This document shows positions 3,845 through 7,484 of a stretch of 34,890 nt of DNA, one piece after another. The first letter of the stretch is position 1, and each line of letters starts with the position of its first letter. Source of the DNA: Minisyncoccota bacterium (GTDB taxonomy: Bacteria > Patescibacteriota > Patescibacteriia > Patescibacteriales > UBA12465); contig JAIPJA010000006.1 in the NCBI GenBank assembly GCA_021734405.1, positions 1-34,890 on the forward strand. The letters are read 5' to 3'. The translations under genes and the position numbers were made by a program. A model generated the notes under the pieces. It saw nothing but the letters and a program-made list of their open reading frames with translations. It searched no databases and had not been told where the DNA came from.

Positions 3845-4318
3845 ATGTCTAAAAAAGCTTTAACTTTAATATTTTCTCTTCTAGGCTCTTTAGCGGCTGG
3901 AGCTTTAGGAGGCTTATTTACTGCCTCCAGTGTTTCTTCTTGGTATTTAGAACTAAATAAACCATTTTTTAATCCACCTAGCTGGTTGTTTTCTCCAGTT
4001 TGGACTCTTTTGTATTTACTTATAGGTGTGTCTTTGTTTTTAGCTTTAAATAGAGCTAAAAGTATTATTGTCAAACAAAACCTGGTACTTTTGTTTTGTG
4101 TTCAATGGGTTTTAAATGTTTTTTGGACTTTCTTGTTTTTTTATTTACGTTCACCTTTTTTAGGACTTTTAGAAATTATTATTTTAATTTTAGTTATAAT
4201 TTTAAATATTACCTATTTTTATAAGCAAAGAAAATTATCAGCCTATCTTTTAATTCCTTATTTACTTTGGGTGATTTTTGCTGCTAATTTAAATTTAGCT
4301 ATTTGGCGACTTAATTAA
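3845..4318 (+). CDS. tspO: TspO/MBR family protein
   Basis: 157 aa, 5 TM helices; LNKPFFNPPSWLFSPVWTLLYLLIGVSLFLA motif. Confidence 0.9.
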   Translation: MSKKALTLIFSLLGSLAAGALGGLFTASSVSSWYLELNKPFFNPPSWLFSPVWTLLYLLIGVSLFLALNRAKSIIVKQNLVLLFCVQWVLNVFWTFLFFYLRSPFLGLLEIIILILVIILNITYFYKQRKLSAYLLIPYLLWVIFAANLNLAIWRLN

Positions 4319-5226
4319 ACTTTAAAATAGTTCAGAATAGTTTTAACAGTTTCTTGTTTTTTCTGAGCTATTTTTATTTGCTCAGACTGTGAGTTTATCG
4401 CTTTATTTAAATAAAGATTATTTTTAAAAACTGAATTTGCTCGCAGAAGTATCTGACAGTTTTTGTTTTCTTGTTTTAGCCTTTTAATTATTTCCGTTTG
4501 AGTTAAATATAGTTGTATTTTTAATTCCTTTATACTTTTTATTTCTTTTGAGCTTGTTTCTAGGCAGAAATGAATAGCTAAATTTAAGCTCCTGTTAGAG
4601 AAATCAACTTCTAAATCATGAAGATCATCTTGTATTTGTCTGACAAGTAGTAAACTGGAAAATAAAGCTATAATTTCATTGATTTCTTCCTCTCTGGAAC
4701 TAGACTGATATTTTAAAAGTAAGTATATAGCTGGCAGGCAATGGGCTAAAGATTTGTAGCGACTGGAATTTAAATGATCAGATAGAGCTGGTATTTTAGG
4801 GGAGTGAAATTCTTTTATTTTTTGGCAATTTTCTATTTCCCAATAATTAGCAGTTTCCATTTTTAAGATAACTTTTTCTAAAATATTTTGCCAAGTTAAA
4901 GATAAATTTACTGAGTAATAATTTTTTAGTGATTGAGAGAGTAAAAAATTAGCTAAAGGCAAGTGGTGTATTTGCTGGTTGTCTAAAACTTGATCATACA
5001 GAGTATAGGCTAGCCAAATGTAGATGTTGCCTAAGCTTAAATATAGGTTTTCTTGTAAATTTAAAATTTGCTTATCATCTAAAAGCCAGGCTTGTAGGGA
5101 TATCTCTTGCCATAAACTTGAGCTCTTTATTTTCTCTAATTTTAAATTAATGGTATTTTGCCAGTCTTTATTTAAAGCAGAGAAGTTAAGAGACTGATTA
5201 ATTGTTTGCAGTATTTTTTCTTTCAT
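4315..5226 (-). CDS. Class-1 isoprenoid-synthase-like protein; candidate ComQ-like peptide prenyltransferase
   Basis: 303 aa; first Asp-rich motif WLAYTLYDQVLD, second RQIQDDLHDLEVDFSNRSLNLAI; overlaps the histidine kinase gene by 29 nt; next to a short Trp-ending peptide ORF. Confidence 0.65.
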   Translation of the reverse strand: MKEKILQTINQSLNFSALNKDWQNTINLKLEKIKSSSLWQEISLQAWLLDDKQILNLQENLYLSLGNIYIWLAYTLYDQVLDNQQIHHLPLANFLLSQSLKNYYSVNLSLTWQNILEKVILKMETANYWEIENCQKIKEFHSPKIPALSDHLNSSRYKSLAHCLPAIYLLLKYQSSSREEEINEIIALFSSLLLVRQIQDDLHDLEVDFSNRSLNLAIHFCLETSSKEIKSIKELKIQLYLTQTEIIKRLKQENKNCQILLRANSVFKNNLYLNKAINSQSEQIKIAQKKQETVKTILNYFKV

Positions 5227-6613: not shown

Positions 6614-6727
6614 TTAGCTTCCCCAGGGTAAGGATAGGTCGCTTGTTTCCATAACCTGTAACATTAAACTTAAAAGAGTTAAAGGCAGGCTTTGATAAAA
6701 CAATTTTTTTAAAAATTTTTCCAACAT
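6614..6727 (-). CDS. 37-aa peptide ORF, candidate ComX-like prenylated pheromone precursor (not in supplied ORF track)
   Basis: ATG at 6727, TAA at 6616-6614: MLEKFLKKLFYQSLPLTLLSLMLQVMETSDLSLPWGS; Trp at third position from the C-terminus; ends 6 nt before the kinase start codon; -10-like TAAAAT upstream. Confidence 0.65.
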   Translation of the reverse strand: MLEKFLKKLFYQSLPLTLLSLMLQVMETSDLSLPWGS

Positions 6728-6753: not shown

Positions 6754-6787
6754 ATTTTAACAATAATAAGTTAAAGAAAAGTTAAAG
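6754..6787 (-). promoter_or_regulatory. Putative response-regulator-activated promoter of the peptide/kinase/prenyltransferase operon
   Basis: On minus strand CTTTAAC-TTTT-CTTTAAC (11-bp period; plus-strand copies 6781-6787 and 6770-6776), then 10 nt, then TAAAAT (6759-6754). Confidence 0.5.
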
Positions 6788-6812
6788 ATGAGCTGTTTAT
6801 TAATATCGAACT

Positions 6813-7484
6813 TTATTCAATTAAATACCCTTTATTTTTTATAGTTTTAATTAAATTTTCAGCTTTAAAAGGTTTGAGCTTTTTTCTTAAGTTAGAGATA
6901 TGTACATCAATGCTGTTAGTAAACAAATTAGCATTAATATCCCAAATTTTTTCTAAAATTTCTTGACGACTTAAAATTTTTCCTTGATTGTTGATTAAAA
7001 AAATTAAGAGTTCCAGCTCTTTAGCGGAAAGATCTAATTTTTTATTTTTGTATTTAACAGTAAAATTCTCTTGATTAATTTCAAAGCCCTTATGTTTTAA
7101 AAGTTGCTTATTTTCTAGTTTATAAGAAGATCTACGACTAAGCGCTTTAATAGTTGCCCATAGTTCTTCCAGGCTAAAAGGTTTGTTTAAATAATAATCA
7201 GCTCCACTGTTTAAAAGTTTTACTCTATTAGGCGCTTGATTCATTACGCTCATAGCTATAATAGCTAAAGAATTATTATTATCTCTTAAAGTTTCAATAA
7301 TTTCTTCTCCGCTTATCTCAGGCATAGCATAATCTACAAGCAGAAAGTCGTAATTTTGAGTTTCTGCTAGCTTTAAACCTTTTTTAGCTTGAGACTCGTA
7401 ATCTAAAACAGCGCCTTTAGACTGCAGAAAGCGTTTTAAAGCTAAACCTAAATTATTATCATCATCTATAATTAATATTTTCAT
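6813..7484 (-). CDS. OmpR/PhoB-family response regulator
   Basis: Receiver MKILIIDDDNNLGLAL...FLLVDYAMP...LNKPFSLEEL; winged-helix C-terminus ELELLIFLINNQGKILSRQEILEKIW...NSIDVHISNLRKKL. Confidence 0.95.
   Translation of the reverse strand: MKILIIDDDNNLGLALKRFLQSKGAVLDYESQAKKGLKLAETQNYDFLLVDYAMPEISGEEIIETLRDNNNSLAIIAMSVMNQAPNRVKLLNSGADYYLNKPFSLEELWATIKALSRRSSYKLENKQLLKHKGFEINQENFTVKYKNKKLDLSAKELELLIFLINNQGKILSRQEILEKIWDINANLFTNSIDVHISNLRKKLKPFKAENLIKTIKNKGYLIE

Follow-up and report, generated by a model that had tools for sequence, protein, structure and literature searches.

The window analysed here, a stretch of 34,890 nucleotides from the genome of a Minisyncoccota bacterium (G000), carries an OmpR-type regulator, a small peptide frame, a membrane histidine kinase and an isoprenoid-synthase-fold enzyme, in this order and all on the minus strand. 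The features of the locus are:

6813–7484, minus strand: OmpR/PhoB-type response regulator (PF00072, PF00486; Trans_reg_C E = 1.2e-23)
6771–6788, minus strand: two perfect 7-bp direct repeats of TCTTTAA (TCTTTAA-cttt-TCTTTAA) with 11-bp spacing, a candidate response-regulator site
6754–6759, minus strand: candidate −10 element TAAAAT, 11 bp past the repeats (pattern match only)
6614–6727, minus strand: predicted precursor peptide gene, 37 aa, ComX-like, MLEKFLKKLFYQSLPLTLLSLMLQVMETSDLSLPWGS; position, size and Pro-Trp tail are common to relatives
6623–6628, minus strand: codons CCC TGG of the conserved Pro34-Trp35, from the excess of the PW dipeptide in gap ORFs; Trp35 is the predicted prenylation site
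6618–6624, minus strand: GGGGAAG, from its sequence and its spacing to the kinase the likely kinase Shine-Dalgarno, overlapping the Trp-Gly-Ser codons
5198–6607, minus strand: membrane histidine kinase with about six N-terminal hydrophobic segments and the H-box MFHDLANPLTA (PF02518, weak PF00512; hydropathy; sensor alignment)
4315–5226, minus strand: class-I isoprenoid-synthase-fold enzyme, a predicted tryptophan prenyltransferase (ComQ/PalQ/Ord1-like) from its fold and its YDQVLD and QIQDDLHDLEVD motifs

Pfam placed the regulator and the kinase firmly, and the enzyme gene overlaps the kinase gene by 29 nt. At its other end, the enzyme gene overlaps by 4 nt a convergent gene of the TspO/MBR family (window 3845–4318), for which no counterpart next to the enzyme was noticed among the listed relatives.

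The gap between regulator and kinase is 205 nt, and the 37-aa frame is the sole ORF of at least 20 aa lying wholly inside it. An earlier note on this DNA had pointed to an un-annotated ORF of this length before the kinase, with a Trp third from the C-terminus. The frame is present as described: its translation is MLEKFLKKLFYQSLPLTLLSLMLQVMETSDLSLPWGS followed by a stop, an exact match, and the Trp is residue 35 of 37 (codon 6623–6625). The note had also cautioned that GGGGAAG overlaps the Trp-Gly-Ser codons, which is the case in the window, where 6 nt separate the peptide stop from the kinase start codon. Among the 214 small ORFs (20–65 aa) of the window, the peptide is the only one with Pro-Trp in its last ten residues, and dinucleotide shuffling of the window's own gap gave a Pro-Trp-tailed ORF in about 1% of the shuffles. 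The peptide had no match in Pfam up to E = 1 and none in NCBIfam, and no credible known RNA family was found in the gap. It is divergent, as a profile built from the peptides of 39 relatives did not recover it, and a pairwise test was therefore used instead. Its best partner among the 39 was the peptide of locus L017, with an alignment score of 54 that was reached in none of 2000 shuffles (null mean 28).

The sequence before the kinase could be read in 40 loci, 39 from Patescibacteria relatives plus the window. We counted ORFs of 20–65 aa with standard starts and took the last ten residues as near the C-terminus. Small ORFs with a Pro-Trp tail are found in 37 of the 40 gaps against 0.62 expected from dinucleotide shuffles, and Trp near the C-terminus in 39 of the 40 against 9.9 expected from the same shuffles, related loci being counted as independent in these and the other shuffle tests. 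The exception in the standard-start count is L021, which has an intact NPGTPWRD tail and ATT at the start position, while Pro-Trp is replaced by Tyr-Trp in L083 and by Asp-Trp in L087. With any start allowed, a Trp-tailed small frame is present in all 40 readable loci, and Pro-Trp in 38. PW also tops the 400 dipeptides near the C-termini of gap ORFs (37; runner-up 18). The conserved feature is Pro-Trp, rather than the W-G-S tail to which the earlier note drew attention.

Falkowbacteria peptides have NPGTPWRD/S tails, and more distant lineages have leaders of the type MKKVLEKVLTDKRAR. Over the conserved core PG(T/I)PWR the residues are constant and the third codon positions drift. In the 15 peptides with PG(T/I)PW, Pro is encoded by CCG, CCC, CCT and CCA, Gly by all four codons, Thr by three and Arg by CGC, CGT, CGG and AGA. 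The earlier note had named frameshifts or stops in orthologues and a non-coding substitution pattern as evidence against a peptide; the relatives have the opposite, an open Trp-tailed frame and coding-type third-position variation. Peptide stop and kinase start are 20–90 nt apart in most of them, and 17 have, starting at most 15 nt past the peptide stop, a strong, terminator-like hairpin with a T-rich tail; the window has no terminator-like hairpin between peptide and kinase. Since in most relatives the Pro-Trp motif is this far from the kinase, often with a hairpin between them, it does not serve kinase initiation. The caveat that Shine-Dalgarno conservation could account for these bases therefore falls, given the third-position variation and the absence of such an overlap in most relatives. 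The 37-residue frame is almost certainly a real peptide gene.

The order regulator, peptide, kinase, enzyme recurs across the sampled Patescibacteria, and several relatives, like the window, have the block divergent from a PBP2/hrcA/grpE/dnaK cluster. G000 is of one family with G012, whose contig is Candidatus Falkowbacteria GW2011_GWF2_43_32 (Patescibacteria/Parcubacteria). The enzyme is present in 23 of 39 genomes of this family, in 18 of 384 in a sample of the class and in 20 of 384 in a sample of the phylum. The kinase was found in 21 of the 23 enzyme-bearing family genomes, the remaining two being cut by contig ends. When the family was searched with a profile for the sensor part of the kinase, five kinase-positive genomes had no enzyme match. 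In G013 the contig ends short of the enzyme position, and the peptide is intact (MSRLIESILKHKSRRSSRYLEKIFMENGIPWRQ). G007 has an intact kinase, no enzyme and a peptide remnant with stops, ending in GKPWL; in G004 and G018 the retained kinase follows a short gap that holds no peptide; and in G032 the kinase is broken and the peptide absent. In the latter four, loss or decay of the peptide thus accompanies loss of the enzyme, the only setting in which it was seen. L082 has a PW peptide immediately in front of the enzyme and no kinase that could be recognised; the peptide was found by a profile built without L082. The peptide is very probably the substrate of the enzyme.

Some loci deviate in their gene content. 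The kinase gene is in two frames in L092 (3949–5366) and L108 (3219–4639), by assembly error or decay. A similar gene of unknown type, about 230 aa in length, lies near the locus in L015 (1635–2351), L016 (5622–6311) and L109 (1513–2202), and in the latter two it occupies the slot of the response regulator elsewhere.

The window enzyme is a single-domain protein of 303 aa with a sub-threshold Pfam match to polyprenyl synthetase (PF00348, E = 0.018). The enzyme profile gave weak matches only against PDB sequences, and in a scan of named genomes the window enzyme had no match as a query, while the closer enzyme group led to Falkowbacteria records. The 13 aligned homologues all share D78, D82, Q197, D200, D201 and D208 (window numbering). 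The FARM is formed by D78/D82 (D-x3-D) and the second motif by Q197/D200/D204 (Q-x2-D-x3-D), which is intact in the window (QIQDDLHD); Q-x-x-D-D-x-x-D/N-x-x-x-D is retained in 46 of 48 enzymes. We first accepted the Gln as diagnostic of Trp prenyltransferases and then demoted it, since ordinary trans-prenyl synthases also have Gln before the second Asp motif and it is thus not diagnostic alone. A single-sequence model of the window enzyme reached a pLDDT of only 44 and was discarded, and an AlphaFold2 model of a Falkowbacteria homologue, built from an alignment that included the window protein, was used instead (mean pLDDT 88, pTM 0.86). The top Foldseek matches of this model in the PDB were the hexaprenyl-diphosphate synthase 3aqb and the tryptophan prenyltransferase Ord1. 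Judged by fold and motifs, the enzyme can with good confidence be predicted to prenylate Trp.

Longer enzymes with an extra N-terminal domain were seen at L015, L043–L046, L051–L053, L073–L076, L080 and L083–L085. The extra domain has weak matches to TIGR01787 (E = 0.0049) and to the TED-domain, cyclase-like folds of the alpha/alpha toroid kind, and these proteins are possibly prenyltransferase-cyclase fusions.

Direct repeats at 11-bp spacing are the layout expected for PhoB/OmpR-type regulators. Such 7-base repeats, with at least 6/7 identity, occur in 14 of 31 leaders against 4.7 expected (maximum of 9 in 40 shuffles), and 11 bp is the peak among all repeat spacings tested. Their position before the peptide suggests autoinduction, and the module is probably autoinduced through them. 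Of 31 long leaders, 25 also carry a GTCG element (often AAGGTCGA), against 6.9 expected, at about 35–50 nt before the peptide start (GTCG loci L016, L018, L022–L024, L045, L048–L051, L073, L074, L076, L078, L090 and L093–L095). In most cases a variable stem encloses the element (total score 137, null maximum 126), which has no Rfam match, is absent from the window and is a candidate regulatory RNA.

The locus shares several features with the ComQXPA system of Bacillus: a modifying enzyme with the isoprenoid-synthase fold and a FARM, a small peptide whose Trp is close to the C-terminus and whose gene directly precedes that of a multi-pass membrane kinase, and a regulator in the same cluster. 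The Trp of ComX is third or fourth from the end (PMC4008528, PMC5331326). Yet ComX forms the Pfam family PF05952, which the window peptide does not match, and ComQXPA peptides are 52–73 aa long, whereas those found here have 22–44 aa and a conserved Pro before Trp. The gene order is A-X-P-Q instead of Q-X-P-A. The ComQXPA kinase has HisKA_3 and about ten TM segments, and its regulator is ComA-type GerE/LuxR; here the kinase has weak HisKA, no HisKA_3 and about six hydrophobic segments, and the regulator is OmpR-type. Finally, the second Asp motif, degenerate in ComQXPA (pseudo-SARM), is intact here, and ComQXPA is a system of Firmicutes, unlike the present one. Its peptide carries geranyl or farnesyl on Trp, is secreted and activates the kinase; for the peptide found here, Trp prenylation, export and sensing are predictions. 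Because the kinase, regulator and peptide families, the gene order and the second Asp motif all differ, the system is not a ComQXPA member. The earlier note's reading of a ComX-like, Trp-modified peptide beside its kinase is supported, with the corrections that the peptide is outside the ComX Pfam family and that kinase and regulator belong to other families than ComP and ComA; the prenylation itself we infer.

PalQ/PalX/PalP of Paenibacillus likewise groups a kinase and a precursor peptide with a Trp prenyltransferase, and D89/D93 and Q197/D200/D204 of PalQ (PMC10853753) have the same D-x3-D and Q-x2-D-x3-D spacing as the window enzyme. PalX differs in its NHLP leader, whereas neither Pfam nor NCBIfam matched the window peptide and NCBIfam matched none of three relatives' peptides. 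The Trp of PalX is strictly C-terminal (PMC10853753), whereas 0–8 residues follow the Trp here (two in the window). ChrPC (Hubrich 2024) is described in PMC13290415 as a prenyltransferase domain that acts on an internal Trp and is fused to a cyclase domain. The extra N-terminal domain of many relatives' long enzymes recalls this arrangement, but it matches cyclases weakly, and the window enzyme is single-domain. Ord1 (PDB 9v4g–9v4j), among the top solved folds for the enzyme model, has mutated residues Q216 and D219 with the spacing of Q197 and D200 in the window; it is a free tryptophan/indole prenyltransferase whose substrate is free tryptophan, with no peptide or kinase partner described in the text consulted (PMC13290415). 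By the tests run, the present system is a member of neither ComQXPA nor PalQ/PalX/PalP, and appears from its sequence to work like both.

We propose that the ORF product is a precursor from which a short lipopeptide pheromone is made. Prenylation by the downstream enzyme, at the Trp in the C-terminal Pro-Trp motif, would be followed by trimming, and the product would then exit the cell. The multi-pass membrane kinase, the predicted pheromone receptor, would sense the product and phosphorylate the OmpR-type regulator, which would bind the 11-bp repeats before the peptide promoter and so turn on peptide, kinase and enzyme. No protease or exporter for the peptide was identified; the export of ComX is also unknown (PMC4008528). 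As an explanation of the whole, autoinduction included, a ComQXPA-like module making a Trp-prenylated pheromone is the best one and quite probable, and export of the pheromone and its sensing by the kinase are likely.

Five genomes have a canonical prenyl-diphosphate synthase, with an IHDDIxD FARM, within or beside the locus, which ties the locus to prenyl-diphosphate use. Its gene lies between regulator and peptide in L084 (7182–8234), just upstream of the peptide in L045 (4230–5270), just downstream of the enzyme in L046 (7293–8345) and L051 (7305–8366), and is convergent in L052 (4384–5373). Such synthases were found in 14 of 21 system-bearing genomes of other families and in 1 of 19 of the window family. 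In the latter family, IspH was found in 0 of 24 genomes, HMG-CoA reductase in 0 of 15 and UPP synthase above the cut-off in 1 of 24. G000 (95.6% complete) has no match to PF00348, PF01255, IspH or HMG-CoA reductase, and so the lipid donor may be, and presumably is, scavenged; a distant, unrecognised donor enzyme in G000 is possible. It is conceivable, if doubtful, that a host-dependent cell without prenyl diphosphates of its own takes the donor from its host, and that the signal would report host contact together with cell number.

Other readings of the locus can be weighed against these data. That the frame is a chance ORF, with conservation of Shine-Dalgarno bases alone, is scarcely credible. 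The overlap of GGGGAAG with the W-G-S codons would fit, but the gap counts, third positions and co-loss in the relatives contradict it, as does the single such tail among 214 window ORFs, and we ruled it out. It is highly improbable that the signal is a small terpenoid made by the enzyme and that the ORF acts as an upstream leader by which kinase translation is tuned: the isoprenoid-synthase fold and the overlap of the window ORF with the kinase Shine-Dalgarno are compatible with this, but Pro-Trp is conserved amid third-position variation, a terminator-like hairpin often stands between peptide and kinase, and the peptide is lost with the enzyme and not with the kinase.

The peptide might instead be a prenylated antimicrobial or host-directed product, the two-component system only regulating its production, as other prenylated RiPPs are secondary metabolites and relatives' long enzymes resemble the ChrPC fusion (PMC13290415). 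We consider this very unlikely, as the loci showed no conserved gene for immunity or transport and the kinase is the constant partner of the enzyme (21 of 23 family genomes, the other two contig-cut). Also unlikely is an internal sensor of isoprenoid supply, in which the prenylated peptide would stay in the producer as a membrane-anchored kinase regulator and report prenyl diphosphate, not density. G000 and nearly all tested family genomes are without prenyl-diphosphate synthase, IspH and HMG-CoA reductase, so that their donor supply would be external, and no exporter was seen, both of which favour it. The synthases of other families (14 of 21 genomes, five beside the locus) make supply sensing unlikely as a general role, however, and the short core after the leader resembles exported ComX.

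ComQXPA-type loci were placed in Firmicutes only by a 2014 census (PMC4008528), a survey of quorum-sensing genes in CPR/DPANN leaves ComX and ComQ unmentioned (PMC7567580), and we found no earlier report of such a module in Patescibacteria in the open-access literature. The pheromone reading, if true, would place a Bacillus-style cell-to-cell signalling module in tiny host-dependent bacteria, and raises the question of the source of the lipid in genomes without recognisable isoprenoid synthesis. It also offers many new candidate pairs of Trp prenyltransferase and substrate, some with cyclase-like extra domains. About 40 precursor peptides with a near-invariant Pro-Trp are now available across Patescibacteria, and since each has a clear candidate receptor and modifying enzyme, the peptide signalling of these uncultured episymbionts is directly testable in E. 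coli.
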